From a virus: 33,306 bases of DNA. Positions 3,092 through 27,055 of the stretch are shown piece after piece. The position numbers were made by a program, and so were the translations under genes. The stretch lies in the IMG/VR virus record IMGVR_UViG_3300032309_002058, positions 1-33,306 of that record, one strand, 5' to 3'. The notes below the pieces were generated by a model. It made no database searches, was not told where the DNA came from, and saw nothing but the letters and a program-made list of their open reading frames with translations. The first letter of the stretch is position 1; each line of letters opens with the position of its first letter.

Positions 3092-3253
3092 ACTGTCCCT
3101 CCTCCGGGTCAGTTGCGACAGGTACTAATAACCTGTCTCGCTTATCAGTCAAAGGCCGAGGGACTCACAGACGCATTAGATGCGTGGAGGCACTCCACCT
3201 AGTTATATATTACATTACTTCTTATTTAGTTATTTGTACGGTTTTTGATCAAC
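3092..3253 (-). promoter_or_regulatory. Leader of the major capsid gene: candidate promoter and three hairpins
   Basis: This is the largest gap within the head operon. On the minus strand there is a TAATAT -10-like box at 3207-3212. Just after it come three hairpins: GTGGAG-TGC-CTCCAC (3184-3198), ACGCAT-CTA-ATGCGT, and CAGGT-TATTAGT-ACCTG, then the ribosome site. The first hairpin begins about at the predicted transcript start. No T-run follows any of them, so they look more like a stable 5' leader than a terminator. No good -35 box was found, so the promoter itself is tentative. Confidence 0.45.
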
Positions 3254-6200: not shown

Positions 6201-8017
6201 GTCATCTCTTTTGGAGCATCGACTGATGCCTTAATTGGTCGACCTTGTGAATCAAGCTTTGGACTCTTAATACCTTTAGGCTCTACAAATTTTTGAGTTT
6301 TTGTTGGATCAACAAAAGGATTGTACTTACGACGAGAATCTGGACCTGACTCTAGCCAAGGCTTTAGTGCAGGAATATTGTATGCATTTACCTCTTGAGT
6401 CCAGTTGTCAAATTTTTCTGGATAATACTTATAAAGAGGGTTATCTTTTGAAACTTCTTTTTGTGGTCCATCAGGTGTTCCAGCTTTTAGATTTGCACCA
6501 CTTTGTGGTGTAGCAGGGGTTGGAGCAACATCTGGAGAAAGTCTTTGCTCTGATACCCACTGAGGGAAGTTATCTAACATTAATTGTAGGTTTGAAGCGT
6601 TAAGTGGAGGAAGTGTTCCTGGCATACGAATAGGTGAATCCATAGGAGTGCGAGGCTCTCCAAGAATTCCGTTTGTATTTAACTCGCCTTCAGCAACTCC
6701 TTGAGGAATTGGTGTGTATGTATCTAAAGGCTCTGTAAGCTTTGCATTAATATCAATAAGGTTTCCATTGTCTAACTCAACCTTGACAGTTCCAGTTGCA
6801 TTATCAATAGAGCGAATATTTCCTTGATAGTTAGGACGACCACCGATAACTACACGGCCACCCATCTTGGCAAACTTACCTGTCTTGTCACGAAGCTGTG
6901 CACCAGCATTTTTTGCACGTTCTTCTGGAGTGTAGTTTCCATCTCTGCTAGATGGAGCTTCGCCAGCCGCAGTTAAAGAGTCATCAAAATCCCACATAGA
7001 TGCTTCATCGTCTGGAAGAATAATTTCATCCATTAGCTCCCAGTCGATTTCTGGTTGAGCATCAACAATCATCTTGTGCTCTTCTGGTTGAAGCTTGTCA
7101 ATCCTATGAGCAATTAAAGGTTCATTATCTAGAAGAGCAGCAATAAGGAGTGCTGTTTCTGTGTCAACTGGCATATGTGTTTTAGGAACAGTATCTTCAA
7201 TATCATCCAACATCTTGTCATAGCTGTGGTGATCGTTCTCTGAGTTGCCCATGTCATCCCAGTTACCGTCATCCCACACATACACTAAACCGCTAGGTTC
7301 AATACGATAAAGACGATCAATACCAGATCCATCCATACGAATACGAACAAAGAATTCAATTACATTATCTTCAGGCATTGTCTTTGAAGTAATGAAAGAG
7401 TCGTAATCAACAGCCTTTGGCATTTCGTGCTCGTATGACTCATAGCCATAAGCAAGCATTGCGTTTGACTTCGCTGCTTTATTTTCACGTTCTACAATTG
7501 CTGATGCCCAACGCTCTGCGGCATCTCCACCCCAAAGTGCCCAAGCAATACGGCCATTAGATGGATAGTTCTTCTGTCCCGGCTTGTAGCCAGTTCCCTT
7601 TTTATCTACTTGGTGGCGTGGGAAGTATTTAGCAATATGACGAACCTTGCGAATGCCAATCTGTCCACCACGAGCAAGAGTGCGAGCAGTATTCAAACCA
7701 ACTGAAGTACCACCACGGTCTTCTTCTTTACGCCAAGCAAGTCCACGCTTTGCTTCTGCAATAACAGAGTCTGGAATTGTGTACATACGGTCGTTATTTG
7801 AGAATACCTTGATATCAAGAGATGTCAAAGCAGCGGCTGCAAGCTCTACTGCTGTATCGGTAGGACGAGCACCTTTTGAATCCCATTCGAAGGATGCGAT
7901 GAGAGGCTCTTTAATATCTAAAGCAGTAACGATGTTTACAGAGTCATCAACAACGACGCCCTTATCATCTGATACAAAGAGGGCTCTAGTTCCGTTACGA
8001 CCGATAAATTCCATCAT
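3254..8017 (-). CDS. Capsid maturation protease inside a large multi-domain polyprotein
   Basis: The start chosen is the ATG at 8017, which overlaps the stop of the gene before it (ATGA) and lies behind GAGGAG; this gives 1587 residues. In order: residues 85-180, a conserved actinophage block (RGLAWRKE, GGQIGIRKVRHIAKYF, IAWALWGGDA); 352-435, a QLRDKTGKFAKMGG motif followed by a small KOW-like barrel; a Pro-rich linker; 700-770, a block with GAAKIRW, GDWTRC and GYCALRHKEMNG; 805-960, an HK97-type prohead protease domain with candidate His858 (GEGHDGS) and Ser906 (RGVSADL); 975-1180, a conserved companion domain (VFGHIAAWH); a coiled coil; 1282-1340, GKALPDGSFPI with HIMKRA; then a helical tail. 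SLTAAG, SVTAAG and VLTAGG lie exactly between the domains. It would process capsid precursors in the prohead. The family is clear; the catalytic residues are by analogy. Confidence 0.85.
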   Translation of the reverse strand: MMEFIGRNGTRALFVSDDKGVVVDDSVNIVTALDIKEPLIASFEWDSKGARPTDTAVELAAAALTSLDIKVFSNNDRMYTIPDSVIAEAKRGLAWRKEEDRGGTSVGLNTARTLARGGQIGIRKVRHIAKYFPRHQVDKKGTGYKPGQKNYPSNGRIAWALWGGDAAERWASAIVERENKAAKSNAMLAYGYESYEHEMPKAVDYDSFITSKTMPEDNVIEFFVRIRMDGSGIDRLYRIEPSGLVYVWDDGNWDDMGNSENDHHSYDKMLDDIEDTVPKTHMPVDTETALLIAALLDNEPLIAHRIDKLQPEEHKMIVDAQPEIDWELMDEIILPDDEASMWDFDDSLTAAGEAPSSRDGNYTPEERAKNAGAQLRDKTGKFAKMGGRVVIGGRPNYQGNIRSIDNATGTVKVELDNGNLIDINAKLTEPLDTYTPIPQGVAEGELNTNGILGEPRTPMDSPIRMPGTLPPLNASNLQLMLDNFPQWVSEQRLSPDVAPTPATPQSGANLKAGTPDGPQKEVSKDNPLYKYYPEKFDNWTQEVNAYNIPALKPWLESGPDSRRKYNPFVDPTKTQKFVEPKGIKSPKLDSQGRPIKASVDAPKEMTPETSDVPILHMAIVSPDDPQAVMDLVALVPASDASTQPTTFTRKDGKWIPEPQILSDLRSATPPPTVVLDDTNLADVLEQVDGKKSVTAAGGLDRNRGQAEKLRRYWTYGKGAAKIRWKTPGDWTRCYKQLAKYMGPRAKGYCALRHKEMNGYWPGDRKNDRKSDFSVNTMHSYDELLSTFVMRAKAADAKSRVLTAGGYDSDKSMGSAFVIPLVIPEGVESGDGRIMKKGALDMRELPLPLLWQIKTGEGHDGSVVVGQITSMERTDDGIGNAKGHFDTGEYGKEAERLVRGGFIRGVSADLDQFEADDERKDDENGSDTKVDAGKITITKARVMAVTIVPKPAFQECTIQLADDASVEEEEVNIPDGVYVEGVNALEASALVACGMIAGAIPVTPPTEWFDDPQLKGPTPLTVDDDGRVFGHIAAWHVDHIGMTAGTKPPRSRSKYAYFHTGVVRTDNGTDVPVGQLTLAGGHAGLEASASEAVRHYDDTASAIADVHAGEDAYGIWVAGSVRPGSTPEQIRALRASAPSGDWRPIKNSLELVAVCQVNVPGFPIARARVASGQVMALVAAGASTLAMLKNDPLAELNARIADLEGDKKMALVASANDVRARFEINRMEVLAAKKLELAAKVKKVKEDAEEDIDYMIQMFDENPENEMAVISRRVRERLAGEGKALPDGSFPIRNAGDLKNAIRAYGRAKPGSRGKVKRHIMKRAIGLGREELIPENWKGAASNLDEIVASMKSRTEEYGTRLGAEFATNSEALFAEQITEEIVDLSPEEIQALKEEAKAREEGRATDGEAPPERDADGRVKYTAETQPRDATGKFRTVLARIKKDLGTSGLQNVLDKVKEAENFDSTGNYAGAAKAAADLIGIIDRLDSGALNAESLENVRNSAGELGKVIANLPFAFGEEAQKIRFSDVPPALRDLMEDMITKVEAKIGKEDADVATVELKKFISGSELYNQSEISSQMAKLLRLLT

Positions 8018-8736
8018 GCTTGTTTTGACTCCTCTGTTACTGGTCCACCAGCTACCCATGCACGACATGTGCGGGATGCAGCGCATTTAAAGTCGAATGC
8101 TTCACAATACCCTAGATCGCCAGCCTCGATTGAGCCCCAAGCATCATTTCCTGCCTCGTTTCCAAGCCCAGAAGCAATGCAATCAAGCATCTTTGGAGTC
8201 TGAATAAACACAGCACAATTGCCACATCTTTGCTGCTTAGCGGTCTCGGTATCTACAGACCACTCGTCTGCAATTGCTTGCCAAAACTTATTATTTGGGA
8301 GTGCTGGATTAAGAGGTCCGTACATTGCTGAGTCAATAGCCTTTTTACGATTATCTAGGTTTATAACAATATCTGAGGTAGCAGGAGGGCACCCTTCAGA
8401 TGTTTCAACTGCAGCAGTCATAGATTTGCCGCTCTCTTCAAAAGAGTATGTAACTTCGTAATCTTTTACTTGATCATATTTAAGGTAAGTTTTTGCTTTC
8501 TGAGCCTCGTCAAACATATCTGTAACTACTTTGTAGTCAGCAGGAAGAATGTCCATAATTGAAAGATTCTCAAGGCTAATATCTTCTGGAGACAACGCAA
8601 GCCATTGTCCATCTACTCTTGTAAAAGTACCAAACTTTTCTGTAGAAAATACAGCTTGATAAACAACATTCTCGCCGTTTGCATAGATTAGAGACATGCC
8701 TTCGAGCGGGTAGGACTTAGCGTTAGAAAGTTTCAT
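8014..8736 (-). CDS. Cysteine-rich head-operon protein
   Basis: This 240-residue protein has an unremarkable N-terminal half of mixed beta character (MSLIYANGENVVYQAVF, FTRVDGQWLAL) and a C-terminal cysteine cluster, CGNC at about residue 171, then LDC, GYCEAFDFKCA and RTCRAWV. The spacing of six cysteines suggests a metal or iron-sulphur binding module; the 383-residue protein in the same operon has a shorter cluster of the same general kind. The segment SMTAAVE near residue 104 resembles the proposed protease site. Its start overlaps the preceding 41-residue gene (ATGA) and its stop overlaps the protease gene (ATGA), so the three are likely translated in a coupled way. Similar cysteine-rich pieces occur fused to head proteins in other actinophages. 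Function is unknown. Confidence 0.7.
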   Translation of the reverse strand: MKLSNAKSYPLEGMSLIYANGENVVYQAVFSTEKFGTFTRVDGQWLALSPEDISLENLSIMDILPADYKVVTDMFDEAQKAKTYLKYDQVKDYEVTYSFEESGKSMTAAVETSEGCPPATSDIVINLDNRKKAIDSAMYGPLNPALPNNKFWQAIADEWSVDTETAKQQRCGNCAVFIQTPKMLDCIASGLGNEAGNDAWGSIEAGDLGYCEAFDFKCAASRTCRAWVAGGPVTEESKQA

Positions 8737-8860: not shown

Positions 8861-8980
8861 TTATACCGTCTTCTCTAGGTCTTCTTCTTCTTCTTCTTCT
8901 GGATAATCTTCTTCAGAAGGCTCTGGGTTGTAGTCAGCAGGTAGAGGATCCACAATTTCATACTCAAAATCATCCGACAT
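8861..8980 (-). CDS. Small, very acidic protein of 39 residues
   Basis: The frame reads MSDDFEYEIVDPLPADYNPE and ends in a run of six glutamates followed by DLEKTV. It starts within the last codons of the giant protein (AATGTCGGATGA), so 11 bases are shared. That is the same AATGTC arrangement used at the portal/383 and 383/giant junctions. The glutamate run is encoded by a GAA repeat. No family is recognised. Confidence 0.6.
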   Translation of the reverse strand: MSDDFEYEIVDPLPADYNPEPSEEDYPEEEEEEDLEKTV

Positions 8981-11900
8981 TTAGATTTGCCTTTCTGTAA
9001 GATTCTTTAAGGTTTTCTGCAGCTTCACGGCCAAGTACTTTATCAGTGATAAAAATATAATTCATTCTATACTCTACACCATGAGCATCATGTCCCTCTG
9101 CTACGCTAATTGTTGTAGCAAAATGAGCGATTTCGTGAAGAATATTTGGTTCACTTTTTGCTAAAAGTCTATTGATTTTTAATGATGATATAAATGAACC
9201 GTTTTTAAAGCCATAAGTATATTTACCACCATGGCTCTTACCACTGAACAGGGTAACTGGAGGTCTTCCTAGTTGTCCTCCATCACCAAAGGCTTCTACA
9301 AACCAATCGGCGGTGATTATATCTTTTACATAGTTTTGAACACCTTTTGGAGACCCGTCTAAATGTTTTTCTCCTATTGAAGATTGAATATTTGTTGATC
9401 TTTCAAGGTAGTAGTTATTAAAGTCTTTAACATATTTTTTATGAGCTGCTATATAAGAGTCACTATCTTGAAAATCTGCACGTCTAGGGGCAGCAGGTGG
9501 TTCCATATCTTTCTGCAGTTGAGGCTGGTATTTTTCTTCTGCACCATATACTTTTTTAATATCTACATCGGTACGATTTACAGCTTTGGTAAATGCCTCT
9601 CTAGGGCTAAGATCGTGTCCACCTTTTATACCAGCAGGTTTTATATCATCTTCTTGAGCAATCTCTTCTCCAGTTTTACCCTGCTCACCGACATTAGGTT
9701 CAGGAGTTGACTCTGGCTTTAGTCCTGCATCTTCTGCAATTTCGTCGCCTGTCTTACCTTCACTGCCAACACTGTCTTCTTTTCTCCAAACAAATATTTT
9801 TTTATTTTTATCAAAAGATTCAATTCCGCCACCTCTAGAGCCTATAACCTTAGTAGATGCAATAACGTTATCTTCTCCAATATTAATAGCTACGACTCTT
9901 TTTTTACCTGAAATATCTAACCTATCTCCAACTTTTAGATCAGTAGGATCTATCTCTGATCGGATATAACCCTTACTAGTAGGTTTAGGAGAAGAGTCTA
10001 CCTCTTCTGAGATTTCTTCTCCAGTCAGACCTTCGCTACCAACACCTTCGCCGACAGGCTCTACAGGATTTCCTTCTTCATCAAACTTAGCTGGCTCTTC
10101 TTGCTTTCCCAGCATGTGGTCTACAGCCTTCTGTGCTTGCTTGGCTGCCTTGATAATCATTTGTGGATCGTTCTTAAGAGCTCCAAGCCATGACTTTGCA
10201 TATGATGCAACGTTACCGAAGTCAATCTCAACGCCTAAGCGTGCTGCAACAAGTGCAACAGAGATCTCTGCAATAAGTTCTTCTTCACCACGGCTTGCCT
10301 TATGAGTTCCGTAGTTATCTGTAAGGTCTTTGCGGTTTACACGAGATGGATGTCCTGTGCTGTGTGCAAGTTCGTGAACTAGTGTCTCAAAGAGATCTTG
10401 TTCTGCACCGAACTGCTCACGCAGTGGTAAATGGATACTGTCAGTTACTGGTGAGTAATAAGCGCCGTCCTGAGACTTGTAGAAAATTTCTGGACGATCC
10501 TTGTATGTATCAAGAAGAGTCTGCTCTGCTTGGCTTACTGGGATTGGCTCACCTTTAACAAGTGGTGGAAGATTAATTCCTTCTGCTTGTTCTACGTTAA
10601 AGACGTTAATAACCTTTGGAGGTGTGTAAATAAATACCTCTTTAGTAGTTCCATCTGGCTGTTCAACTTTTTTGAATTTTGGAGTCCAGTGAATAATTGA
10701 AGTTGCTTTTTCGCCACGCTTAATGTTTCCACCAAGCTTTTCTGCTTGCTTGTATGTAAGCCAACGATTATCTGACCAACCATTGCGCTCCTGAGCTGCC
10801 CAGAGTACGAGGACGTTTGTTCCTTCATACATCTTGCCAGTTGCAACGCTAGTTGGAAGGAATCCTCCACCAGTCCAAGGCTTACGCCAAGGAGCAGTGC
10901 CAGCTTCAAGGGCTGCAATAATTGCATCTGCAATCTTTTGTGTAGCTGGATCAATCTTTTTTGCAGTTTCCTGTACTTCATTATCAAACTCTTCTGGTGT
11001 AACTGGTACTGGATCTGTTTGAATGTTATTTGCTTGTAGTATTAAAGATGATGGAGTTGCTTGCTCATCCTCATCGGATGTGTAGTCATTAACCCAGCTA
11101 AGAGGTCCTAGGTAGACTTCTTTCTGTGCACGAGTAATTGCAACATATGCAAGACGAAGTTCTTCTGGTGCTGGCATATCAATCTCGCCAGTTTCTTTAT
11201 TAAACTTTGGTCCCCAGAAGTCATCGTAAATGCGAACCTTATTCCACTGCAGACCCTTTGACTGGTGAGCTGTTGTTACAACAACATCTGCTGATGCTGA
11301 GTCTATAATTCCAGAAAGTGACTTTTTAATTTTGTTTAACTGATCTGTTCTTTCTAGATCATCTTCAATAACTTTGTCTCTAACCCATACATCAACAGTT
11401 TCACCCTTTTTGTTTTTAGCTTTTTCTCCAGTCTTTCTAGCTGGCATACCTGCATTACGAAGTTTTTCTGCAAGATCTGGAGTTGTATAGCCAGTGACAA
11501 TTATTGTATTTCCTTTAATTTCGTATTTTAATTTAGAACCTAGATCACCTGAAGATCCATCTAGTGCGTCGTCTATTTTAATAGGGACATAGGATTTACG
11601 AGCTGCTTTACTTTCTTCAGTTTCTTCACGCTCTACAACAACACGATCTAAAATGTCACGGATACTTTGCATTCCGTTCTGAGTTACTAAGTCATAGAAA
11701 GCCTTAACTGGACGAGCTTTTCCTTCTCGTACTGCAGTCGAAAGTTCTTCCCAAGAGTCGTACATTCCGATTTCTGCGTTGTACTTAGCTGGCTTTGAGC
11801 CTTTCTTTCCGCCCATTAGCCAACTTGTTGTATCAATAACTTCTTCAAGTCTTGTCTTGGTTGACTGACTAATACCTACAGTTTTTCCTTGCTCAAGATA

Positions 11901-14900
11901 CTCAAGCATTGCCTTAAATCCGCCACCGTTTGTGCGAACAAGAACTGCATCTGGATCTGGCATTTCGTCAAGGCTTTCTACAACTTTTCCTTGATCTTTT
12001 CCAGCTCCAACAACTCTCTCTGGCTTTCCAGCAACAGCAAGGAATCGGTTAGCAGGTGCTGCAATATTTGGACCGAATCGGAATGACTCGTTAATCTGAA
12101 GTTTCTCTGCTCCCTCAAGGGTATCTAGCTGATCCTTAGCCCCACGGAAGCCATAGATAGATTGATTTCCATCTCCAACAAATACCTTTTGTACATTTTG
12201 CTTACGGACCCAGTCGCCAGCAACATCATTAATATCTTGTGCCTCATCAAAGAAAATAATGTCTGCTGCAGGGATCATTGTTGCCGGGTTTGCACCAGCC
12301 TCACTTGGAGACATTGTTACATCAATACCATTTAGCTGAACATACTTCTCTGGGAAAGATTGATTCATAGCCAAGCGACCCGTAGGGCTTGAAATGTCGT
12401 CCCACCAGCGATTTGCATAATCAATAAATACTTCAGGGATGTCTACAAAATTATCTGTAAAGTGTTTAGGCATAATCTTATCGTCTGCACTTTGTGCAAA
12501 AGCTGTAACTGCCTGACGAATAACAGATACTACATCTTTACTTGATAGAGTTGCTTCTACCTTTTCTCCATCTTTTTTAATCTCTGTAACCTTAACTGGT
12601 CCAAACTCAAGATGATCTGCAATATCTGTTGGAAACGCTATAGCTGTCTTATCAAAACTACGCTTTTGCATCCACTTAGGTGAGTGATGCCAAGCAACTT
12701 GTGTATTAGTTCGTGCAATCATATTTGAAGGACGATCTGGATCAGCGTTAAGTTCTGCAGCTACAGCTTTGTTAAATGCAATGTAAAGAATAGTTTTGTC
12801 TGGATCTTTTTCTGCAACAGCTTTTGCAGCCATCTTAAGTGTGCTGGTCTTGCCTGTTCCAGCAAGAGCTTGAACAATTACATCCTTACCAGCAACTACA
12901 GCATCAATAACTGCTTGCTGCTGTTTAGTTGGCTTAATTCCCTTAGGTTCTACATCAGGGCTGTCTACAATAAAATCTGGATCTGTTTCATCATCTGGGC
13001 TACCTGCAGACTCAATTGGGAACTCTCGATTAAATGAGACCATTCCCATATTTTGAAGGTCAGGTTTTTCTCCTAGAGGGAGAGTGACTTCATCTTTCTT
13101 TTCAATAGCTGTATATAGATCTGGAGATCTAACGCTGAACCACCAGTTTGGAATAGATGGATTATCGAAATAGAAAATCTTTCCATCTGATTTGATAACT
13201 GCTTCAGTGTTGCTTGGACCAATTTTGACAATAATATCGTCTGGTTCAAAGTCTTCACGATATTCAAGCTCTTTTTTATTTGGCTTTACAAATGTATATG
13301 TTGCCTTTACAGGTTTTCCAGTAGAAAGACTTGGCATAAATGCTGTAACAGATCTTTGATGACCCTTTTCATATTGAGATATGTCTTGAACTGCAGCTGT
13401 AAGTTCTTTTAATGCTTCAGGACTTACTTGACGGTAGTTGAGGTCAAGAGCGTACTTCATTCTCTTTTCTTCGTTTTCTTTCCAAACTCTGCTTCGTTCT
13501 TCAGCATCCATAACTACAGGCTCTTCAGGAATCTCGACTGTAGGAGTGTTGTCTGCAACATCTCCAGTAAGAAGTGAAGTTAGTTCTTCTGCAGTTTTCG
13601 GAGTTTCGTTAGGATTTACTGGCTCTCCAACTGTTGGAGGTGTTGTATCTACAAAGAAACCGCCACCATCATCTGGATTAATAATCTGTAGTGAACCTGC
13701 TGAAATATTCTCACGCTTAGCAGCGTCATCAAACTTTACCTTGACATAGTTCTTGTATCCACGAGGACCGTATGTTGTAAGGATTGCTCTGACTTCACCT
13801 ATGCGGCCGTGCTTAACTCCACGAACTTTATCGCCAACCTTAAGAGCGACACCATCTGCTGAAAGATGATTGATAGATGCATCTGGGCGAACAGCAAGTA
13901 CTGCAGCCTTAGTTGTGTCATCTACTGGAAGACCCTTAACTGCTTCTTCAACAGTTGCATCTGGCTTAGCACCAGATGTAATTGTTTCGATTGCATCTGA
14001 GACAATACTCTGAGTTTCTTCTGGAGTAATAGACTTCTTACCCTTAGGTGTAGGAGTCTTAGGCTTTGTCTTAGGCTCTGGAGCAACAACTACTGGCTTA
14101 GATACTAGATCTCTAACTTCTGCAGGTGTCTTACCAGCTAGCTCATTGCGACGACGAAGTGTTCCCTTGAGAACCTTGCCATTAGACCAACCAATTCCTG
14201 GAGACTTCTTCTCTGTAACTCGTGTGCTGTAGAGATCGCCAGTTCCAACAATTCTACGAATAACAATAGTTCCGTTTGGATCTTCTGGGTCTTGCTGAAG
14301 ATCTACAACTTCGTGGTATCCGCCACCTTCTGCTGGGACAAAGTCACCAACCTTAATGTCACCAACAGTTGCTCCACCTTCGTCAACAACAAATGTGTTT
14401 TCGTCATCTTCGATCCAAGAGTTGTTAATCTTTCCGCCAAAAATTGACTCGTATGTATACTCTTCAGCAGAGTCTGTGCTTCCTTCAGTGCCAAAACCAG
14501 ATGTTGTTCCAGTCTTGCCAAGCATCTCGTCTACAGATACTTGCTCTCCAGACATACCACGTTTAATTGCTTCAGCTACTGCGAGCTCTGCTTCTTGCTT
14601 TTTAAATGCTTCTAGTTTTTCGTTGTATGAAGAACGCTTAGCTTCAAACTCTGCAAGACGAGTTGCAACATCAAACTCTCTATTGTCAGGCTTCATATCG
14701 CCAAGCAAACCTTCTAGGATTGCTGGAAGAACTTCAGAGTCAGTTCTGGCATCATGCCATTCTTCATCTGTCTTTTCGATGCCGTAACGCTTAGCAACTT
14801 GACCAAGCTTATTGCCTTTAGGAGTTATGCTCTTTGCTAATTCAAGGGTATCAATAACTCCATCTATGTTGTAATCGATTCCAAGCTTCTTAGCCCATTG

Positions 14901-17900
14901 TTCAAAAGTATTTGTATCGAACTCAGCGTTGTGTGCAACAAAAATTGCATCTTGTCCAGCAAACTCTGCAAATGCACGAAGCTGTTCTTCAATAGATGGC
15001 TGGCTTGCTAGGAACGCATCGTCAACTGTTTGACCGTCGGAGCTAAGCAGCTTAGCTGGGTCAATAACTTTATTTCCTTCTGCATCTGTTGTGTAATAGT
15101 AATCTCCAAGAGGCTCTCCTGGATTGATGAATAGGTTGATCTCTCCAACCTTTTCTCCGCCTTCCCAAACAGATGCTGCAACCTGAATAGGTGCATCAGG
15201 ATTATCATTATCAAACTTTCCAGTCCCTACTGTCTCAAAGTCGAAGTAAACAACTCGCTTGCCCTTAAGAGCATCTGAGATTGCTTTTCCATCTTTAAGA
15301 TTTGCAAGTTCTGCAGCTTTACCAAAGAATGCTGGACGATTTCCACGATTATAGCTATTAGGCTTTTCTACAAGTACTGCAGGAATCTCTGATGCTGTTA
15401 GATCAGGTGTGTATACCTTGCCAGCTTCTTTTCTTGCTGCTGAAATTTCTGCATTCTTATCTTTATAAGCCTGACCCTTAAGAGTTCCTGGCTCGATACT
15501 TTCGATTGCTGGCTTATCGCCCTTTGCAGGAATGTTTTCTGCCTTTTCTCCACGGAGAACTTCAACAGATGTACCAGTCTTCCAAGACTTAACTTGTGAT
15601 TCATGCCCTGGATAGTATCCACGGATTTGAACCTTCTCTTCTGCTGGCTTTCCATCAGCACGCTCGACCATAACTGTTCCTGGTAGAACTTCTTCAATAA
15701 CAAAGAACTCGCTCAGCTCGCCGTTCTCGTCACGACGGAACGCAATATCGTTTGGCTTAAGATCTTTACCAAGTGCATTAACAACATGAAGAGTATTTTC
15801 GGGTGTGAATTCTTTTAGAGGTGCATCAACTTCTGGAGCAGACCAAAGAGCCTTCTGAGAAGAAAGTTGCTCTTGATACTTTTCCATATCTTGTTCAAAT
15901 TGCTTTTGCTCAGCTGGGTCTTTTAGCTCCCAATCGCCGTTGACCTTTGTAAGCTTTCCGTAATCGCCCATCTTTGGCTGATTGAGTTCAGGTAGATCTC
16001 CCTTTGCAGGAGGAGTTACATCACGATAAACATCGAAGAGAACATCGTCTGCCCAAAGCTTACTTGACTGCTCTACTCCACCAGGATAATAGCCACTTAC
16101 ACGAGAAGCTGGAACCATCTCTCCATTGCGCTTCTTTTCAAATCCTGGTTCTACCTTTGTAACTGTAAAGAAGTCCTTAGTCATAACATCGCCAGCTTTA
16201 AGATCTACTGTCTTAGATGTTGCAATGCGTGGTGTTACTGCTACTGGAGTTGCAGGAATTGCTTCTGGAGTTGCAGGAGTTGACTCCACAGAAGTTTCTT
16301 CTGCACGAGCCTTCTCATCTTCTTCGATTAGTTTATCTTCACGCTCTCTGCGCTTTCTATCACGAATCTCTTTAACTCTTTGCTTTCTTTCTGCTTCAGC
16401 AATCTCATCTGGAGTCAGTGGGTTAGGTTTGCCTCTATTTGCCTCTTCTTCAAGGCGAGCATCCATTTCGTCATAGAGCATGTTGAGCATGTCAACCATT
16501 TGCTCGTTTGTAAGACCTTCTAGGTTTTTTCTAAATTCCTTCATTGCTGCTTGAATGTAAGGAGATTCGTTTTTAAGAGCTCCAGCCCCCCACTTAAACC
16601 ACATGATTCTGTTGATCATGTCTTTGCGTGACCCGAAGTCTGTTACTGGAGGTTCTGGATTTTGAACGGCATCAATTAGCTCGTCAATTGATGGTGGATT
16701 TTCAGGGTCAGCCATAATGTCAACAATGGCTCCCTTAGCTGTTGTATCCGCTGCGTCATCCAACTCTCCTTCAAAAATTACAGCATCTTGTCTAGCCTTG
16801 TCGTACTCTTCTCTTTGTTCTTTAAGTAGCTGCTCAATTCGCTCTTCCGCCTCTGTAAGAGGTGGAGGGTTTTCAATAAGATCTCTAATCTCGGCATCAA
16901 TTTTTTTCTTCTGCTCGTCTGTTAAAGCTGGCCGTGGGTCATCACCTTCTGGAGGTCCTGGAAGTCTATTCCCATCTTCATCAAAGAAACCTGCTCTTTG
17001 ATCTGGTAGAGACTCTGGTGGAAATAGTTGTTCAATTTCTGAAGTAGATTCATCAAGTGAAGGTAGCTTAATTTCTTCTGAAGAAGACTTGCCCTTCATA
17101 TTCTTTTCGTGGTAATCAAATGCTTCTTGTGGAGAGTTGAACTCTACGGATTGTTCTAGAGAGCCACCAAGAAGGAACCAATACTTAGCGCCGGGTTCAT
17201 CTACAAGATCAAGAATTGTTCCATCTTCATTCTGAGCAAGAGTTGAAGACTCTGGATCCTTTGACCAACCTGCTGGCAAATTGTCTGGAAGAGTATTAGG
17301 AATTTGATCCTTATCTTTTGTAATCTCTGGGCCAGCAACATCTGTAGTATCTGGTGCTGCTTCTTCAGGAGCCTCTGGTGTTTCATCAATTGCATCTAGA
17401 TCAAGTCGAGCTTGTCCTTCTCTTTCGAGTAAGTCTATTCCAAATCTATCTTTAAGTTCCTTGAGGAAAGCCTTAGCTTTTTTCTCATCCATGCCAGACT
17501 TTGTTTCAGCCTTAGCATCTGGGTTCCAATCAAAACCGTTGTCATCTAGAAAGTCTTTAACTTCTTGAATTCTAAATGGAGCCTTCTTACCTGAGCGAAG
17601 CTCTAGGCGATCTCCCCTGAGACGATAAGAGACCTGAGGAGCAATTGCATCCTCTTCTGCTTTTTTCTTATCTTTCTCAATCTGCTTGTCTAGCTTTGCA
17701 ATTTCTTTTGCAAGAGTTTCACGAACAGAATCGATTGCTTTGTTTTCAATAACATCTGACTCTGAAAGATCTCGCTTAGCAAGTTCAAGCTGCTCATCTG
17801 CTGCCTTGAGAATGTTTCTTTCATTCTCTGCTGAGCGCTCGCCAGTTCTAAAATCCTTGAAACCAGCACGAGCTGATTGTGTTGGATCTTGCAAGATATC

Positions 17901-20537
17901 GAGTGCATACTGAACACGGGCGGAAGGTCCTGGTTCAAATCCATATTCTCCAAAATCAATTGCTTCTACTTCACTTCCAGCTTCAAAGCCTTCCATCTCT
18001 TTATCTTGATAATCAGAAAGCAGTGGGCTATCAAATGTTGGATCGTTAAAGAAACCAACAAGTCTTGCAAAATCTTTATTTTTCTTGAGCATCTCTTGGA
18101 AACGAGGATCCTTAGATGTTTCATCGATTACATCTTCTGGTCCCCAACCCTCCTTGAGAGGATCTTTTCCAGACTTAGTTCCCTTGCCTTCATCTGGGAT
18201 TCTTGCTGTAGGAGTCTCTGCTACAGGCTCTTCTTCAAGAGCAACTTCGTCTTCTGAATCTACTTCATCCCAAGTGCCGTCAACAACTTGCTGATTAGTC
18301 TCGTCCATGTCGAAGTTACGAAGCTTCATTGCATCACGAAGTACTTCACTTGGTACTTGAATAGTTTGGACTTCGTTGTTTTCGTCTAGATCGCCAAATG
18401 GTGCAAAGCCGTCTTCGTCATACTTGTTTTTAATTGCACCGTTATATGACTCAACTAAATCTTCATCAGGAATATCTGAGTTAGCAATATCTAAAGCTTG
18501 AGCACGCTCTTCTTCGCTAAGAATTCTATTTTGAGGAGGTGTAGAGCCTTCTGGCCATTCAACTGGAGCATCTTCTGTGAGATATGGAGTGTAATCCTTG
18601 CTCTTATCAAACTCTGCTTGCTCTTCTTCTGTAAGTCCATCAATAAGAGCAGGGTATGTAGATGGCTCTGCATCTTCAGTAATCTCTGGTATCTCTGCAA
18701 CAGGAGTTTCCTCTTCTGCAGGTGCTTCTGGTTCTGGTTCTGGAGCCTTTGTTACTTCGTCAAATACTTCACCAAGCTTCTTTGGCTCTCCAACTTTGCC
18801 TTCTTTATCTAATTCACGCTTTGCAGCAAGTGCATCTTCGTTCTCGTTTGTGCCAAGACGCTTATCGTATGCTTGAGCAAGTGCAAGTTCTGCATCTCCG
18901 CCCTTTTCATCAATTGCCTTAAGGATTGCTTCTGCTGGAACTTCTTGCTCTCCACCAGTAGGTTCTCCATCAGGCCCAACTGAATCTGGGAATGTTAAAC
19001 GACCAAGACCAGTATCAAGTGCATCATCAAGACCTTCAATAAGTTCATCACCTTGAAACATGTTTGCAAGAGATGCAGGGTCGTCATACTCAGAGACTGA
19101 GCGATATGGTGCAGTTGGGTCGGTTACTTCGTAAGTATCTTCTGGAACCTTATAGTTAAATCCTTGAGGTGCTTCTGCAGGAGTTTCTGGTTCTGGAAGA
19201 CGTGCAATCTCTTCCTTCTTAAACTTATCTTGCTGATCTACAAGTGGGGTCTCATCTTCAGGAGTGTTGTCATCCTGAGTAATCTTTGCAAGCGGTGTGC
19301 GACCTTCTTCTTCATCAAGGAATCTTTGATCTGTTTGAATTCTTTGCTGTGCATCGTTCCAATTCTGTGTGTAAGCAAATGGAGTGCCACCACGACGTGA
19401 AACTGCGTAGATTGGCTTCTCTGGATCCCAGAACTGCTTACCTGTGTCTGCATCTGTTTCGCCCTGCTTATCAACTGCAGCATCGTCTAAGTCACGCTCT
19501 GCTCTAATCTTGTTTGTTTCAGTTAAGTCTGCAAGAGCACGCTTGTTGTCATCAAACTTAACTACATCATAAGCCTGATCTGTGTACTTAGTTGTTCCCT
19601 GCTTGCTTCCTCTTTCATCTTTCTCGAATGAGCTAGGGCTTTCCATAAATGTAAGATCTGCTTCATCAATGATTGGATCATCCATATCATCTGCTGTTGA
19701 GCCAGCAGGTGTAAAGCCATCTTTCTTTGCTGCAGGACTTGGAAGAAAATTACTTCCTCGTGCCTGACGAATTGGCATTGCAACAATGCGACCATCACCA
19801 AGTTCAACGTCTGCAAGTTGTGGACTAAAGATGTTCTGACCAACTGCACGACCTGAAAGGCTTGCTGTGCTTCCATCACGACGTCTTACCTTGATACCAA
19901 GGCCGCCAAACATCTCAACCCAACGGCCAAGACGATCACGGAGCTGGAGAGCAACACGAGCACGCTTTGCAGCAGCAGAGTTTCCTCCACCATACGCTGC
20001 AGTCATTGCTTCTAAAGGAATGTGACCTTGTGGAAGATTCTCAAGACGTGTAATTGCATAAAGTTTTTCTGGAGAGTTAGCTGGAGCAAGCATTGCAGAT
20101 GCAATAAGTGCTTTAGCGTTTTCATCTGTGATCCGTGGATCATCTGTAACCCATTGAACGTGTGTACGAATCATCGCTGATGCTGTCATCGAGTGTTCAC
20201 GGGTCGAACGTGGATGTGTAAGAGGCAAAAGATCTGTATTAAAAGCTGTTAAGCCAACTACCTTGTTATATTTTGCAAGAGAAATGTAATTTGAAAGCTC
20301 TGTAAGTGCTTGATGCTTACGAACCGAGAATGGAAGACCTTCAGAAGCATGTAATGAGCGAGAAATAACACGGAAAGCTGATCTGCGATTTACTCTACGA
20401 CTATTTGTTGTAAATTCATTAGCTGATTCGATCATCTGCAACGCTTCGTTGCGAATAATGCGTGCCTGTTGACGAGTACTGAAGATAGTCTCGCTTTGAG
20501 AGAGGATGTGAAGTTGTCTTTGATTTTTCTTAGACAT
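8970..20537 (-). CDS. Giant polyvalent protein: exonuclease, helicase, ArdC-like and metallopeptidase domains
   Basis: The ATG at 20537 (MSKKNQRQ) overlaps the upstream stop by 8 bases, giving 3855 residues. Residues 1-122 resemble the N-terminal module of the 383-residue protein and end in HPRST and SMTASAM. A QLRDRLGRW motif and KOW-like barrel follow (about 195-260). Acidic linkers fill 270-1440. Barrel-like modules recur near 1450, 1590, 2063, 2236 and 3536. A DEDDh exonuclease lies at about 1755-1945 (DFETVG 1766, HNAEFDT 1869, HDARTD 1928). A UvrD/Rep-like SF1 helicase spans about 2530-3140 (ALAGTGKTS near 2559, FFDEAQDIN, GDGNQSIYGFRGA, HQSKGLQW, YVAITRAQ). An ArdC-like region lies at about 3197-3476 with LVHELAHSTGHP. 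A second zincin is at the C-terminus (HEIAHF 3801, then GHDAHG). All key motifs are present. It is probably a virion protein delivered with the genome, but this is inferred from position. Confidence 0.85.
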   Translation of the reverse strand: MSKKNQRQLHILSQSETIFSTRQQARIIRNEALQMIESANEFTTNSRRVNRRSAFRVISRSLHASEGLPFSVRKHQALTELSNYISLAKYNKVVGLTAFNTDLLPLTHPRSTREHSMTASAMIRTHVQWVTDDPRITDENAKALIASAMLAPANSPEKLYAITRLENLPQGHIPLEAMTAAYGGGNSAAAKRARVALQLRDRLGRWVEMFGGLGIKVRRRDGSTASLSGRAVGQNIFSPQLADVELGDGRIVAMPIRQARGSNFLPSPAAKKDGFTPAGSTADDMDDPIIDEADLTFMESPSSFEKDERGSKQGTTKYTDQAYDVVKFDDNKRALADLTETNKIRAERDLDDAAVDKQGETDADTGKQFWDPEKPIYAVSRRGGTPFAYTQNWNDAQQRIQTDQRFLDEEEGRTPLAKITQDDNTPEDETPLVDQQDKFKKEEIARLPEPETPAEAPQGFNYKVPEDTYEVTDPTAPYRSVSEYDDPASLANMFQGDELIEGLDDALDTGLGRLTFPDSVGPDGEPTGGEQEVPAEAILKAIDEKGGDAELALAQAYDKRLGTNENEDALAAKRELDKEGKVGEPKKLGEVFDEVTKAPEPEPEAPAEEETPVAEIPEITEDAEPSTYPALIDGLTEEEQAEFDKSKDYTPYLTEDAPVEWPEGSTPPQNRILSEEERAQALDIANSDIPDEDLVESYNGAIKNKYDEDGFAPFGDLDENNEVQTIQVPSEVLRDAMKLRNFDMDETNQQVVDGTWDEVDSEDEVALEEEPVAETPTARIPDEGKGTKSGKDPLKEGWGPEDVIDETSKDPRFQEMLKKNKDFARLVGFFNDPTFDSPLLSDYQDKEMEGFEAGSEVEAIDFGEYGFEPGPSARVQYALDILQDPTQSARAGFKDFRTGERSAENERNILKAADEQLELAKRDLSESDVIENKAIDSVRETLAKEIAKLDKQIEKDKKKAEEDAIAPQVSYRLRGDRLELRSGKKAPFRIQEVKDFLDDNGFDWNPDAKAETKSGMDEKKAKAFLKELKDRFGIDLLEREGQARLDLDAIDETPEAPEEAAPDTTDVAGPEITKDKDQIPNTLPDNLPAGWSKDPESSTLAQNEDGTILDLVDEPGAKYWFLLGGSLEQSVEFNSPQEAFDYHEKNMKGKSSSEEIKLPSLDESTSEIEQLFPPESLPDQRAGFFDEDGNRLPGPPEGDDPRPALTDEQKKKIDAEIRDLIENPPPLTEAEERIEQLLKEQREEYDKARQDAVIFEGELDDAADTTAKGAIVDIMADPENPPSIDELIDAVQNPEPPVTDFGSRKDMINRIMWFKWGAGALKNESPYIQAAMKEFRKNLEGLTNEQMVDMLNMLYDEMDARLEEEANRGKPNPLTPDEIAEAERKQRVKEIRDRKRREREDKLIEEDEKARAEETSVESTPATPEAIPATPVAVTPRIATSKTVDLKAGDVMTKDFFTVTKVEPGFEKKRNGEMVPASRVSGYYPGGVEQSSKLWADDVLFDVYRDVTPPAKGDLPELNQPKMGDYGKLTKVNGDWELKDPAEQKQFEQDMEKYQEQLSSQKALWSAPEVDAPLKEFTPENTLHVVNALGKDLKPNDIAFRRDENGELSEFFVIEEVLPGTVMVERADGKPAEEKVQIRGYYPGHESQVKSWKTGTSVEVLRGEKAENIPAKGDKPAIESIEPGTLKGQAYKDKNAEISAARKEAGKVYTPDLTASEIPAVLVEKPNSYNRGNRPAFFGKAAELANLKDGKAISDALKGKRVVYFDFETVGTGKFDNDNPDAPIQVAASVWEGGEKVGEINLFINPGEPLGDYYYTTDAEGNKVIDPAKLLSSDGQTVDDAFLASQPSIEEQLRAFAEFAGQDAIFVAHNAEFDTNTFEQWAKKLGIDYNIDGVIDTLELAKSITPKGNKLGQVAKRYGIEKTDEEWHDARTDSEVLPAILEGLLGDMKPDNREFDVATRLAEFEAKRSSYNEKLEAFKKQEAELAVAEAIKRGMSGEQVSVDEMLGKTGTTSGFGTEGSTDSAEEYTYESIFGGKINNSWIEDDENTFVVDEGGATVGDIKVGDFVPAEGGGYHEVVDLQQDPEDPNGTIVIRRIVGTGDLYSTRVTEKKSPGIGWSNGKVLKGTLRRRNELAGKTPAEVRDLVSKPVVVAPEPKTKPKTPTPKGKKSITPEETQSIVSDAIETITSGAKPDATVEEAVKGLPVDDTTKAAVLAVRPDASINHLSADGVALKVGDKVRGVKHGRIGEVRAILTTYGPRGYKNYVKVKFDDAAKRENISAGSLQIINPDDGGGFFVDTTPPTVGEPVNPNETPKTAEELTSLLTGDVADNTPTVEIPEEPVVMDAEERSRVWKENEEKRMKYALDLNYRQVSPEALKELTAAVQDISQYEKGHQRSVTAFMPSLSTGKPVKATYTFVKPNKKELEYREDFEPDDIIVKIGPSNTEAVIKSDGKIFYFDNPSIPNWWFSVRSPDLYTAIEKKDEVTLPLGEKPDLQNMGMVSFNREFPIESAGSPDDETDPDFIVDSPDVEPKGIKPTKQQQAVIDAVVAGKDVIVQALAGTGKTSTLKMAAKAVAEKDPDKTILYIAFNKAVAAELNADPDRPSNMIARTNTQVAWHHSPKWMQKRSFDKTAIAFPTDIADHLEFGPVKVTEIKKDGEKVEATLSSKDVVSVIRQAVTAFAQSADDKIMPKHFTDNFVDIPEVFIDYANRWWDDISSPTGRLAMNQSFPEKYVQLNGIDVTMSPSEAGANPATMIPAADIIFFDEAQDINDVAGDWVRKQNVQKVFVGDGNQSIYGFRGAKDQLDTLEGAEKLQINESFRFGPNIAAPANRFLAVAGKPERVVGAGKDQGKVVESLDEMPDPDAVLVRTNGGGFKAMLEYLEQGKTVGISQSTKTRLEEVIDTTSWLMGGKKGSKPAKYNAEIGMYDSWEELSTAVREGKARPVKAFYDLVTQNGMQSIRDILDRVVVEREETEESKAARKSYVPIKIDDALDGSSGDLGSKLKYEIKGNTIIVTGYTTPDLAEKLRNAGMPARKTGEKAKNKKGETVDVWVRDKVIEDDLERTDQLNKIKKSLSGIIDSASADVVVTTAHQSKGLQWNKVRIYDDFWGPKFNKETGEIDMPAPEELRLAYVAITRAQKEVYLGPLSWVNDYTSDEDEQATPSSLILQANNIQTDPVPVTPEEFDNEVQETAKKIDPATQKIADAIIAALEAGTAPWRKPWTGGGFLPTSVATGKMYEGTNVLVLWAAQERNGWSDNRWLTYKQAEKLGGNIKRGEKATSIIHWTPKFKKVEQPDGTTKEVFIYTPPKVINVFNVEQAEGINLPPLVKGEPIPVSQAEQTLLDTYKDRPEIFYKSQDGAYYSPVTDSIHLPLREQFGAEQDLFETLVHELAHSTGHPSRVNRKDLTDNYGTHKASRGEEELIAEISVALVAARLGVEIDFGNVASYAKSWLGALKNDPQMIIKAAKQAQKAVDHMLGKQEEPAKFDEEGNPVEPVGEGVGSEGLTGEEISEEVDSSPKPTSKGYIRSEIDPTDLKVGDRLDISGKKRVVAINIGEDNVIASTKVIGSRGGGIESFDKNKKIFVWRKEDSVGSEGKTGDEIAEDAGLKPESTPEPNVGEQGKTGEEIAQEDDIKPAGIKGGHDLSPREAFTKAVNRTDVDIKKVYGAEEKYQPQLQKDMEPPAAPRRADFQDSDSYIAAHKKYVKDFNNYYLERSTNIQSSIGEKHLDGSPKGVQNYVKDIITADWFVEAFGDGGQLGRPPVTLFSGKSHGGKYTYGFKNGSFISSLKINRLLAKSEPNILHEIAHFATTISVAEGHDAHGVEYRMNYIFITDKVLGREAAENLKESYRKANLNVG

Positions 20538-21681
20538 TATCTTCTCTGTTTCTAGGTAATAAGTCTGAATCCATGCTTTCATAACCTAGTATTGCAAAAT
20601 TAGATGCTCTCTTAAATGGATCTTCATTATTACGAACTCCACGAAGCCAAGCAGCACGAACTGCATGCTCTGCTTCGTAACCAAATCCAGAAAACTCGGC
20701 TAGAGAAAGAATGGCGTGCTCTGGAGAGTCGTACTCTTCTTCATCTTGTAGTTCTACAGTGAGCTCTTGTTCAAAACGATACTCCTGTGCAATCTGTGCA
20801 AGCTCTTCTACTGATTGGATTTCTGTTCCGAGTTTCTCGGCTTCGAGAACTCCGACATCAACCACCCCATCTGGGATAACAGCGAAGCGACACTTACCCT
20901 CGTCTTCGACTTCCATGTCGATGATTCTGCATGCGCCGTTACCCATGTATAGAACACAAGAAGAGCACTTGACTCCGATACCTCTGACATCGTTTTCTTC
21001 GGGTGGTGTGTATCCTGCCCAGATTCCTGTTGCATCTTCATTAAACTTTCCATACTTCTCAGCGATCTCAATGAGAGCATTAGCTAGGTCTGATTCTTCT
21101 GGAACTAATCCAGCCGAAGCAGTGATTGAGTTGTTCTTTTTTGTTGACCGAGGATGCTTTGCTGGGAGTAAGTCATTATCTGACTTATAAGCTGAGTTCG
21201 CTGGCTTACCAGACTTAAGCAACTTAAGAAACGCATTAACACGAGCCATAGCCCAACCGTTGCGAGTCATACCTGGGCGATGTGATACTGAATAAGCACC
21301 AGCACCACGTCGATAAACAGCCTTAAGCATTCCTAAGGTTGCACGACGACCTTCTCTTGCTTTTTCGTTATGAGTCTCTACTTTTTCTTTAAGAGACTTT
21401 TCTACTGCTTTAGAAAAAACTATTTTACGAGATCCTGATGCAGAACCTTTTTTGTTTTTGCTAGAGCCTTTAATTCTGTCTTTTCTAGGAGCAGGAGTTT
21501 GAGAGATAGTGCGCTTTTTCTTTGCTGCAAACTCTGAATCATCTGAAGCATCGACAGGAACGCAGTTAGGAACCATTTTGCCGTTCTTTTCCTTCATTCC
21601 AACTTGCTTGTAACCTTCCCAGCACGGATCTCCCGCTGATACAAGTGAAGTAACTACATTATCGATTGGCTCGTTAGACAT
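20530..21681 (-). CDS. 383-residue head-operon protein with DUF5824-like and cysteine modules
   Basis: The start is the ATG at 21681 (MSNEPIDN), inside the last codons of the portal gene (AATGTCTAA). Residues 18-44 carry DPCWEGYKQVGMKEKNGKMV and PNCVPVDA, a short block common in phage head proteins. Residues 88-160 match what I recall as a DUF5824-like domain, with YRRGAGAYSVSHRPGM and WAMARVNAFL. NDLLPAKHPRST (169-180) is followed by SITASAG (185-191), a candidate protease site. Four cysteines at about 239, 242, 251 and 264 suggest a metal-binding knot. The very end repeats DSDLLP. It lies between portal and giant protein, where other actinophages have MuF-type fusion proteins, but I see no MuF core. 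It is likely a virion or assembly protein; its role is unknown. Confidence 0.72.
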   Translation of the reverse strand: MSNEPIDNVVTSLVSAGDPCWEGYKQVGMKEKNGKMVPNCVPVDASDDSEFAAKKKRTISQTPAPRKDRIKGSSKNKKGSASGSRKIVFSKAVEKSLKEKVETHNEKAREGRRATLGMLKAVYRRGAGAYSVSHRPGMTRNGWAMARVNAFLKLLKSGKPANSAYKSDNDLLPAKHPRSTKKNNSITASAGLVPEESDLANALIEIAEKYGKFNEDATGIWAGYTPPEENDVRGIGVKCSSCVLYMGNGACRIIDMEVEDEGKCRFAVIPDGVVDVGVLEAEKLGTEIQSVEELAQIAQEYRFEQELTVELQDEEEYDSPEHAILSLAEFSGFGYEAEHAVRAAWLRGVRNNEDPFKRASNFAILGYESMDSDLLPRNREDNV

Positions 21682-23437
21682 TTTCTGTTCCCTCAGGTGC
21701 TGTCTCTGCATCTGGGGATTCAGCAACGTTTCCTGTTGCCTGTGCACCTGCAGATGCTTGCTGAAGTGCTTGCTCAACCTCTGGAGGTAGTGGGGCAACA
21801 GAAGCTGCTTGCTGTGCGGTGCGAATTGCATTCATAACATCTGGTGCAACTGCTCCGAGCATTGCTTCTGTAAGTTCTGGTGTGAGGGTTCCACGCTCTG
21901 AAAGCATACGGATTGCCATCTCTGTTGGAGTTGGTGCATCTTGGTCTGAGAAGCCATGAGCACGACGCCATGTGTCGTATGAAACTGCACCACGGTCAAA
22001 TCCTGAGTCAGCATCTGCTGCACGGTCATTGCGAGTTGCAATTGCTGATGGGTCATACCAAACAACAATGCGGTTTACATCTGTATCTGTAAATCCACTT
22101 GCGATAAGGTATGGACGAAGGTAGACAACAGTAAGAGCATCTGCGATAAGCAACATCATTGGTTCAATGTGTGACTTGTAGAGAGTCTCGTCAATCTGAA
22201 GTGCGTTTGAATACTTAACGTTTGCAAGACCTGTAACAACATCCTTTGGAACATCTAGTCCCTGAAGGATGCGTTCTAGAACACGATCAGAACGCTCGGC
22301 AAGAGCTGGATCGAATGAACGCTCAAACTTAAATTGCTTAATCTTGTCGCCAAGCTCTGCAGGACCACGGATGATTAGCGGAACAACTGCTGATGCGGAC
22401 TCTTCGTCACGAATCGGAGTTGTCATCGCATCCATTAATTGTTCTTCGAATTCGTCCTCTGCTTCTTCAGCAGTAAAGTTTGGACCGATACCATCCTCAG
22501 AATCGTAGGGGTAGTCTGGATCCGCTTGCGCCGCAACCGAAAGACCATCAGGAAGATAAAGAGCACCAGCATTAAGGCGAGAACGAGCAGTAGCACGGAA
22601 TGTCCTATTCAGTAGAAGGAGTTCGGCACATAAATCTAATAAACCACGAAGTGATGAATCTGCTTCATCTGAGAAACGTGGATGTGAACGCCAGATACGT
22701 CCTACGAATGCATTCTTTGAAAGCTTTGTAGCTAAACCGTTGTTGTTGGTCTGTCCAGAACCAGCTTGTTCACGACGACCAATGACATTGAATCCGCCCT
22801 TTGGATCTGTTGTTACTTCATCAACAGAACGAATATCCCAAGACTCGGGTAAACCAGCTCCAGCTCTAGCTGGCATTTGAACGAGGTAGCATTCCCCAGT
22901 AACCGATAAGTTAAGTGCTGCATCTTTAAGTAAACCTGCCTGTCCTCCGTATGCGGAATTTAAACGATCAAGTGCACGCTCTGCTGCTTGAGCTAAGCGA
23001 TCATCAATCTTATCTGAGTTGCGAACAGATACTGGAGACTCTGCTGGATCGTCAATAACTGCTGCATAAATTCTAATTCGTGAAATTACTGATGCAACTA
23101 AGTTAAATGCATATTTAACTTCTCCGATTGCGTCGTAGTATTCCCAAGCTTCTGCTTGCCATGCACTGGACCCTGCTGAACGACGAGTTCTAAACTGCTC
23201 GTATTCACCTTTGTCATTAATCTTTAACTGAGCGGCCGCTGCAGTAAGAGAACGAGGCGTTGAGTAGCTAACAGCTTGAGCTTGATTTGTTGTAAAGATA
23301 GATGAAATAGTTGATGGCGTTGGAGTTGGTGCAACTATCTGAGTTGATCTAGAGAATGCTGAATTTGTTTTTTTACGAGCAGCTTTTTTAGGCGCAGGAG
23401 TTGGCTCGACTGATTCGTCGTTGGTAAAAATTCCCAT
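21674..23437 (-). CDS. Portal protein
   Basis: This 587-residue protein has the features of the large actinophage portal family: WEYYDAIGEVKYAFNLVAS early on, LLKDAALNLSVTGECYLVQM, an EVTTDPKGGFNVI block, RSHPRFSDEADSSLRGLLDL, and FDRGAVSYDTWRRAHGF near the end. It would form the twelve-part ring at the capsid vertex through which DNA is packaged. The N-terminal 70 residues are rich in Pro, Ala, Ser and Thr and contain SLTAAAAQ at 63-70, close to the motif proposed as a protease site. The C-terminus is a flexible Ala/Glu/Thr-rich tail. GAGGAGTAAGA before the ATG is a strong ribosome site. It precedes the 383-residue and giant protein genes with a coupled 8-base overlap. Confidence 0.9.
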   Translation of the reverse strand: MGIFTNDESVEPTPAPKKAARKKTNSAFSRSTQIVAPTPTPSTISSIFTTNQAQAVSYSTPRSLTAAAAQLKINDKGEYEQFRTRRSAGSSAWQAEAWEYYDAIGEVKYAFNLVASVISRIRIYAAVIDDPAESPVSVRNSDKIDDRLAQAAERALDRLNSAYGGQAGLLKDAALNLSVTGECYLVQMPARAGAGLPESWDIRSVDEVTTDPKGGFNVIGRREQAGSGQTNNNGLATKLSKNAFVGRIWRSHPRFSDEADSSLRGLLDLCAELLLLNRTFRATARSRLNAGALYLPDGLSVAAQADPDYPYDSEDGIGPNFTAEEAEDEFEEQLMDAMTTPIRDEESASAVVPLIIRGPAELGDKIKQFKFERSFDPALAERSDRVLERILQGLDVPKDVVTGLANVKYSNALQIDETLYKSHIEPMMLLIADALTVVYLRPYLIASGFTDTDVNRIVVWYDPSAIATRNDRAADADSGFDRGAVSYDTWRRAHGFSDQDAPTPTEMAIRMLSERGTLTPELTEAMLGAVAPDVMNAIRTAQQAASVAPLPPEVEQALQQASAGAQATGNVAESPDAETAPEGTENV

Positions 23438-27050: not shown

Positions 27051-27055
27051 GTTTC

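Follow-up and report, generated by a model that had tools for sequence, protein, structure and literature searches.

Genomic context of the giant gene

The window, by which we mean the whole stretch of DNA analysed, is the complete IMG/VR record IMGVR_UViG_3300032309_002058 (33,306 bases), which is not backed by a whole genome. We identified in it a minus-strand head operon, listed here in the order of transcription:

21674..23437 (-), portal protein (phrog_776, 5.5e-111), with a candidate cleavage site, SLTAAAA, at residue 64
20530..21831 (-), portal-adjacent gene (DUF5824), bearing DLLPAKHPRSTKKNNSITASA, as does the giant
8970..20537 (-), giant polyvalent protein gene (ORF, 3855 aa)
8014..8736 (-), small gene between giant and protease, with candidate site SMTAAV
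3254..8086 (-), head maturation protease ORF, with an S78-like domain near residues 845-1000, sites LTAAG/VTAAG/RVLTAGG and an RDKTGKF module
998..3091 (-), major head protein (phrog_777, 6e-84), with a long acidic N-terminal region and sites PVTAAA / AITAG

The giant ORF runs unbroken from an ATG at 20537, just preceded by AGAGAAG, to a stop at 8970, and its start overlaps the end of the upstream gene by 8 bases. A first-pass annotation of this DNA had described the reading frame, giving no strand, and had placed it between portal and maturation protease; both the frame and its placement are borne out, with one small gene on each side. As listed, the DUF5824 gene shares its first 158 bases with the portal gene; judged from relatives, its true start is probably an internal ATG near 21681 (MSNEPIDN).

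Upstream of the portal lie a pair of small genes (26628-27688, minus strand) whose products have a peptidoglycan-binding domain and a lysozyme/transglycosylase-like domain (SLT_3, 1.7e-13) and likely degrade the cell wall. A further minus-strand gene (30305-30874) encodes a proteasome/HslV-like Ntn-hydrolase (Pfam Proteasome, 0.0023, below cut-off), and a gene annotated as HslV lies upstream of the terminase in the lake phage DSL-LC01.

Domain content of the giant protein

Along the giant protein we identified the following features, from N- to C-terminus:

19995..20537 (-), helical putative pro-domain of the header, residues 1-181 (conserved in 24 non-redundant relatives; AlphaFold)
19986..20006 (-), candidate prohead-protease site (A)MTA/AYGGGNS, residues 178-184 (flexible hinge; motif enrichment)
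19758..19988 (-), header RDRLGRWVEM motif and SH3-like small barrel, residues 184-260 (alignments; weak Foldseek)
16098..19640 (-), long acidic linker, residues 300-1480 (composition and drift among relatives)
14727..15251 (-), DEDDh 3'-5' exonuclease domain, residues 1763-1937 (profiles and motifs)
11040..12947 (-), SF1A (FBH1-like) helicase domain, residues 2531-3166 (profiles, PHROGs, PDB, motifs)
10068..10955 (-), ArdC domain pair (ArdC-N and zincin, HELAH at 3388), residues 3195-3490 (profiles, PDB, motifs)
8973..9470 (-), C-terminal zincin-like domain, HEIAH at 3801 with downstream HG, residues 3690-3855 (alignment and TIGR04338)

The first-pass annotation had read the protein as a DEDDh exonuclease, a UvrD/Rep helicase and two HExxH metallopeptidase centres, one of them ArdC-like, joined by acidic linkers. 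Profile searches support the exonuclease, helicase and ArdC regions, and the catalytic motifs of all three are intact in six long IMG/VR relatives (L002-L005, L030, L035). The exonuclease matches the RNase_T/DEDDh profile over residues 1763-1937 (Pfam, 5.6e-16), and its DxE, HNAxFD and HxAxxD elements (DFET, HNAEFD and HDARTD) are kept in relatives, one of which (L035) carries HNAVTD in place of HNAEFD.

The helicase matches UvrD-helicase at 2538-2801 (8e-12) and UvrD_C at 3066-3143 (5e-10) in Pfam, and PHROGs assigns a DNA helicase to residues 2531-3166 (4e-73; nearest phrog_1967). Walker A and B and motifs III, V and VI are present as AGTGKT, DEAQD, GDGNQSIYGFRGA, TTAHQSKGLQW and YVAITRAQK. 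It is thus a UvrD-like SF1A helicase with intact motifs, but its nearest solved relative is human FBH1 (1e-18), with UvrD behind (3e-5), rather than UvrD/Rep proper. This likeness is confined to the helicase core, there being no Pfam match to an F-box N-terminal to it.

The ArdC region consists of an ArdcN match (3198-3295, 3.6e-30) followed by MPTase-PolyVal (3354-3467, 5e-29); PHROGs labels residues 3191-3482 as anti-restriction (3e-69), and the ArdC crystal sequence 6sna aligns with both domains (3.4e-47, 288 aa). The HExxH motif and the downstream glutamates (HELAH, EELIAE) are kept in relatives. Since the first HExxH (3388) belongs to the zincin half of this ArdC, the annotated ArdC region and first metallopeptidase form one unit; both HExxH centres exist, but only the second is a separate domain. 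That C-terminal domain matches TIGR04338 (HEXXH_Rv0185) over residues 3729-3847 with 23.4 bits (4.3e-5), under the curated cut-off of 90 bits, and is at most a distant relative of the family. HEIAH..HG is kept in all five aligned sequences (the window and four relatives), while the predicted fold is a low-confidence model (pLDDT 52) with no PDB match, and a profile search of the domain against PDB gave nothing usable. We know of no substrate for this zincin family.

Acidic linkers are present as annotated, with D+E making up 20-28% across residues 301-1650, and BLASTP found no internal repeats within the protein. In the close relatives L002-L005, identity to the window is 71-80% over the linker at 300-1480, as against mostly 86-96% over the domains, and total length varies between 3527 and 4200 aa.

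A conserved N-terminal header

The first ~260 residues form what we term the header, comprising a helical domain, an RDRxGRW motif and a small SH3-like barrel. An alignment of 24 non-redundant headers, leaving out DSL-LC01, has invariant residues N40, R47, LL103-104, HP108-109, S111, W129, D133, GNS185-187, Q198, RD200-201, GR204-205 and M209. AlphaFold predicts a helical domain at 17-170 (pLDDT about 88), a flexible stretch at 172-212 containing AMTAAYGGGNS and RDRLGRW, and, at lower confidence, the barrel at 213-258. Foldseek neighbours of the barrel are SH3/Tudor-like (probability 0.9-0.99) but weak, with E-values of 0.2-0.8; neither a header profile searched against PDB nor Foldseek against a viral library (E<=0.001) returned a match.

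Elements of the header recur in other head proteins. DLLPxxHPRST, at residues 102-112, precedes a candidate cleavage site, SMTASA, at 116-121, and the combination DLLPxxHPRST....(M/I)TASA is common to the giant and the neighbouring DUF5824 gene, with a variant form in DSL-LC01; a DLLP element is repeated at the C-terminus of the DUF5824 product. The RDxxGKF module is found at residue 399 of the protease ORF (RDKTGKF); DSL-LC01 and the Arthrobacter phage Mimi have it in additional head proteins.

Exchange of cargo within a conserved slot

Cultured phages of Microbacterium, Arthrobacter and Gordonia keep the arrangement portal, giant, maturation protease and capsid. We found the same slot in DSL-LC01, reached by tblastn with residues 1-2745, and in the Arthrobacter phages Mimi and Atuin, the Microbacterium phages Pumpernickel and Cece, the Gordonia phage GMA2, Big4, Phendrix and many IMG/VR contigs, the cultured phages with a large slot gene being reached through a portal search. 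Megablast of the window against phage records gave no match. The header, sought in 85k bacterial and archaeal genomes, produced 243 pattern matches, none of them confirmed and hence no host assignment; the hosts of the virus are probably aquatic actinobacteria.

The DSL-LC01 slot protein (WJZ48510, 3289 aa) shares only the header with the giant (33% over 256 aa) and has kinase-like and ART-like regions recognised by eye, with no Pfam match above threshold. Mimi gp77 and Atuin gp71 have a homologous header and share the helicase as well (38% and 35% identity, respectively, over about 210-220 aa). Neither the exonuclease nor ArdC was detected in the slot proteins of Mimi, Atuin and DSL-LC01. Mimi's protein ends in an HEFGH motif, Atuin's joins the helicase to an ADP-ribosyltransferase, and Pumpernickel's has a C-terminal PI3/4-kinase-like region; kinase-, ParB- and ART-like regions in Phendrix were seen by eye only, without a Pfam match. 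In GMA2, Orf10 (L014:7981-10632) has a C-terminal Acb1/2H phosphoesterase-like domain (Pfam 8e-4, below cut-off), so that this slot protein possibly carries a packaged anti-CBASS activity.

A header search of IMG/VR yielded 258 relatives, of which 80 were kept. Their cargo sets include exonuclease, helicase, ArdC and zincin; exonuclease, helicase and ArdC; exonuclease with a kinase-like domain; a kinase-like domain with NUDIX; the exonuclease alone; and a C-terminal kinase-like domain alone, several of the kinase-like assignments lying below Pfam's cut-off. The C-terminal zincin is missing from L035 and L045. In L004 (16400-17146) it is swapped for a different HEIAH..GGH zincin-like domain, and the exonuclease and ArdC of that relative are 94% identical to those of the window, which reads as a recent exchange of one cargo module.

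As the cargo varies while the header is kept, the header is the constant part. That relatives retain this apparent address and swap the enzymes suggests loading into the particle and delivery with the viral DNA. The same observations bear on another, rather improbable, reading, in which the giant is a head-assembly or packaging accessory of the producing cell. Its header would dock at the portal or inner shell and its enzymes would act on DNA being packaged, trimming ends and clearing recombination intermediates, with little or none of the protein ejected. The slot does adjoin portal and protease, helicase and exonuclease are DNA-processing activities, and the protease ORF shares a motif with the header. 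Yet the cargo of relatives (ADP-ribosyltransferase, kinase-like, NUDIX, Acb1-like 2H) is of the kind usual in effectors aimed at the host rather than in packaging, and in several relatives none of the cargo processes DNA.

No recognised enzyme was found in the slot proteins of Cece and Big4. This would suit a structural internal-core or scaffold protein, its acidic body filling or organising the head and its enzymes being accessory passengers, as would acidic linkers exceeding 1000 residues and a helical header positioned much like a delta/scaffold region. Catalytic motifs that are all strongly conserved, above the level of the linkers, argue against such a role, which we regard as unlikely.

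A predicted prohead-protease motif

The pattern phi-T-A-(A/S)-x occurs in the portal, both small genes, the giant, the protease and the major head protein, and in none of the 12 other window ORFs checked; a wider form gives 10 matches in the head proteins of the window versus about 0.9 expected from per-protein shuffles. The giant header contains it twice (SMTASA and AMTA/AYGGGNS). Site positions are kept in relatives, namely PRSLTAAAAQ in the portal, AITAGADIPGYTAG in the capsid and RVLTAGG right before the S78-like domain of the protease. The genomes of Cece and DSL-LC01, complete or nearly so (121/129 kb for DSL-LC01), were not used in defining the motif, and their head blocks exceed the rest of the genome in motif density 26-fold (9/4693 vs 4/54233 aa, p 7e-8) and 18-fold (9/7542 vs 2/30436 aa, p 2e-5), respectively. 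In an unbiased reduced-alphabet tetramer scan of the window, Cece and DSL-LC01, phi-T-A-S ranked first and phi-T-A-A tenth. The motif is likely the prohead-protease site.

We also considered mere alanine-rich composition as its origin, which the shuffles, the whole-genome contrast and the tetramer scan rule out. A literature search, with the terms used, found no known actinophage cleavage motif, and the major head protein, compared with PDB for a mature N-terminus that might calibrate the motif, had no relative there.

Among giants, strict sites number 10 in 5,005 aa of headers and 2 in 53,412 aa of bodies (OR 53). These nearly site-free bodies weigh against a polyprotein cut into separate enzymes by the prohead protease or by its own zincins, which we judge highly improbable even though zincins are present, an internal site (ELTAAV at 2379) is kept in close relatives and the DSL-LC01 slot protein has GLTAAG at 1951. 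A strict phi-T-A site is missing from the header in more than half of the 24 non-redundant giants; position 117 reads SGAE/TTAE in many relatives, and phi-V-A-A frequently stands at the GNS site. Processing of the giant would therefore not be universal: perhaps only some members of the family are cut, or else the cleavage rule is looser.

The maturation-protease polypeptides of Big4 (L012:25733-30391) and Cece (L013:23483-28129) have 8-9 phi-T-A sites each, as if the long protease ORF were itself cut into many pieces.

Proposed packaging and delivery of the giant

The domains and their intact motifs, the slot, the conservation of the header, the exchange of cargo and the motif enrichment were established here by computation; that the protein is cut, packaged and ejected, and what it does in the host, we infer. 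We hypothesize, as the probable reading, that the giant is a head-packaged polyvalent protein, composed of header and cargo, that is processed and ejected with the DNA. The header would bring it into the procapsid beside portal and protease, where the prohead protease would probably cut within the header, with AMTA/AYGGGNS near residue 181 as the best candidate, shedding a pro-domain; the remainder would be packaged and later ejected along with the DNA. Passing 3855 residues through a tail is demanding, and N4 vRNAP and P1 DarB are precedents.

These steps are proposed by analogy with P1 DarA and SPN3US. In P1, the prohead protease removes a ~9 kDa N-terminal piece from DarA, and Dar proteins are co-ejected (PMC12810830); in SPN3US, one cleavage motif is common to portal and ejection proteins (PMC10052503). 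The N-terminal propeptides removed from P1 DarA and SPN3US head proteins measure about 75-90 aa, the long ones, in SPN3US, 111-254 aa (PMC12810830, PMC10052503). In GMA2, within the stretch examined, the label 'structural protein' is given to the portal, the slot protein and the capsid only, and the paper on this phage included virion MS (PMC4524720).

In a new host, ArdC would bind single-stranded DNA and shield the entering genome from restriction, and the available part of one survey describes ArdC-N as binding ssDNA in a protective role (PMC5512222). The 3'-5' helicase and 3'-5' exonuclease could process or protect the ends of that genome, serving in end processing, in exposing ssDNA for ArdC or in defence against host nucleases. 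End trimming and unwinding are plausible uses of the intact domains; the place of action might just as well be the producing cell. The zincins may release modules through self-cleavage, autoproteolysis being what the same available text proposes for the MPTase domain of ArdC-type proteins (PMC5512222).

The first-pass annotation had pictured a packaged kit, blocking restriction before any gene is expressed and cutting host proteins. For packaging, the conserved slot, the header with exchangeable cargo and the predicted sites common to portal, capsid and protease lend indirect support; for the block on restriction, only the identity of the ArdC domain gives support. Cutting of host proteins we found unsupported, the ArdC-type zincin being proposed as autoproteolytic.

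More generally, large actinophages might possess a general system for delivering proteins from the head, in which a header cut at phi-T-A-(A/S) addresses any enzyme set fused to it into the capsid for ejection and the kit differs from lineage to lineage (exonuclease, helicase, ArdC and zincin in the window; ADP-ribosyltransferase, kinase, NUDIX or anti-CBASS-like 2H in others), a generalisation that we offer tentatively and that may well not hold. The proteins that enter a cell with phage DNA are mostly unknown beyond a few model phages, and a recognisable header and predicted motif would make it possible to catalogue packaged effectors from actinophage sequence, cultured phages included. If true, this would hint at the means by which these phages, before expressing any gene, counter restriction, CBASS-like systems and further defences, and would provide a natural protein-delivery tag.

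Relation to known systems

The P1 Dar system (DarA, DarB and Hdf) likewise links antirestriction to head morphogenesis, with N-terminal removal and ejection of Dar proteins (PMC12810830). It differs in consisting of separate proteins, DarB being a methylase-SF2 helicase. The analogy is a functional one, and no P1 record was among the phage matches listed. Another actinophage product of such size is gp27 of Microbacterium phage Burro (cluster EK group), a protein of over 4,400 aa judged virion-associated by SDS-PAGE (PMC7302621); Burro is podovirus-type, and its gp27 serves here as a precedent.

With at least two unrelated conflict-related domains, including ArdC-N/MPTase, encoded among the virion genes of a portal-terminase phage, the giant belongs to the polyvalent class, as first annotated. 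Polyvalent phage proteins are already known, and the giant is a further variant of them. In the sources consulted we found no earlier description of this domain set, of a conserved header with exchangeable cargo in one large-actinophage slot or of the shared predicted motif, an absence that is not proof of novelty. In the available part of Iyer et al. 2017 (PMC5512222), 'exonuclease' is mentioned once and 'DEDD' not at all, and no phage-head header with a shared cleavage motif was found. The combination of DEDDh exonuclease, FBH1-like SF1 helicase, ArdC and TIGR04338-like zincin differs from those given there. The polyvalent proteins of that text are likewise giant multi-domain phage proteins with ArdC-N and MPTase-PolyVal, encoded among virion genes; they have ART and 2H domains in common with the giant's relatives. 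The text also notes, for a few actinomycetes, giant plasmid-encoded proteins with UvrD helicases.
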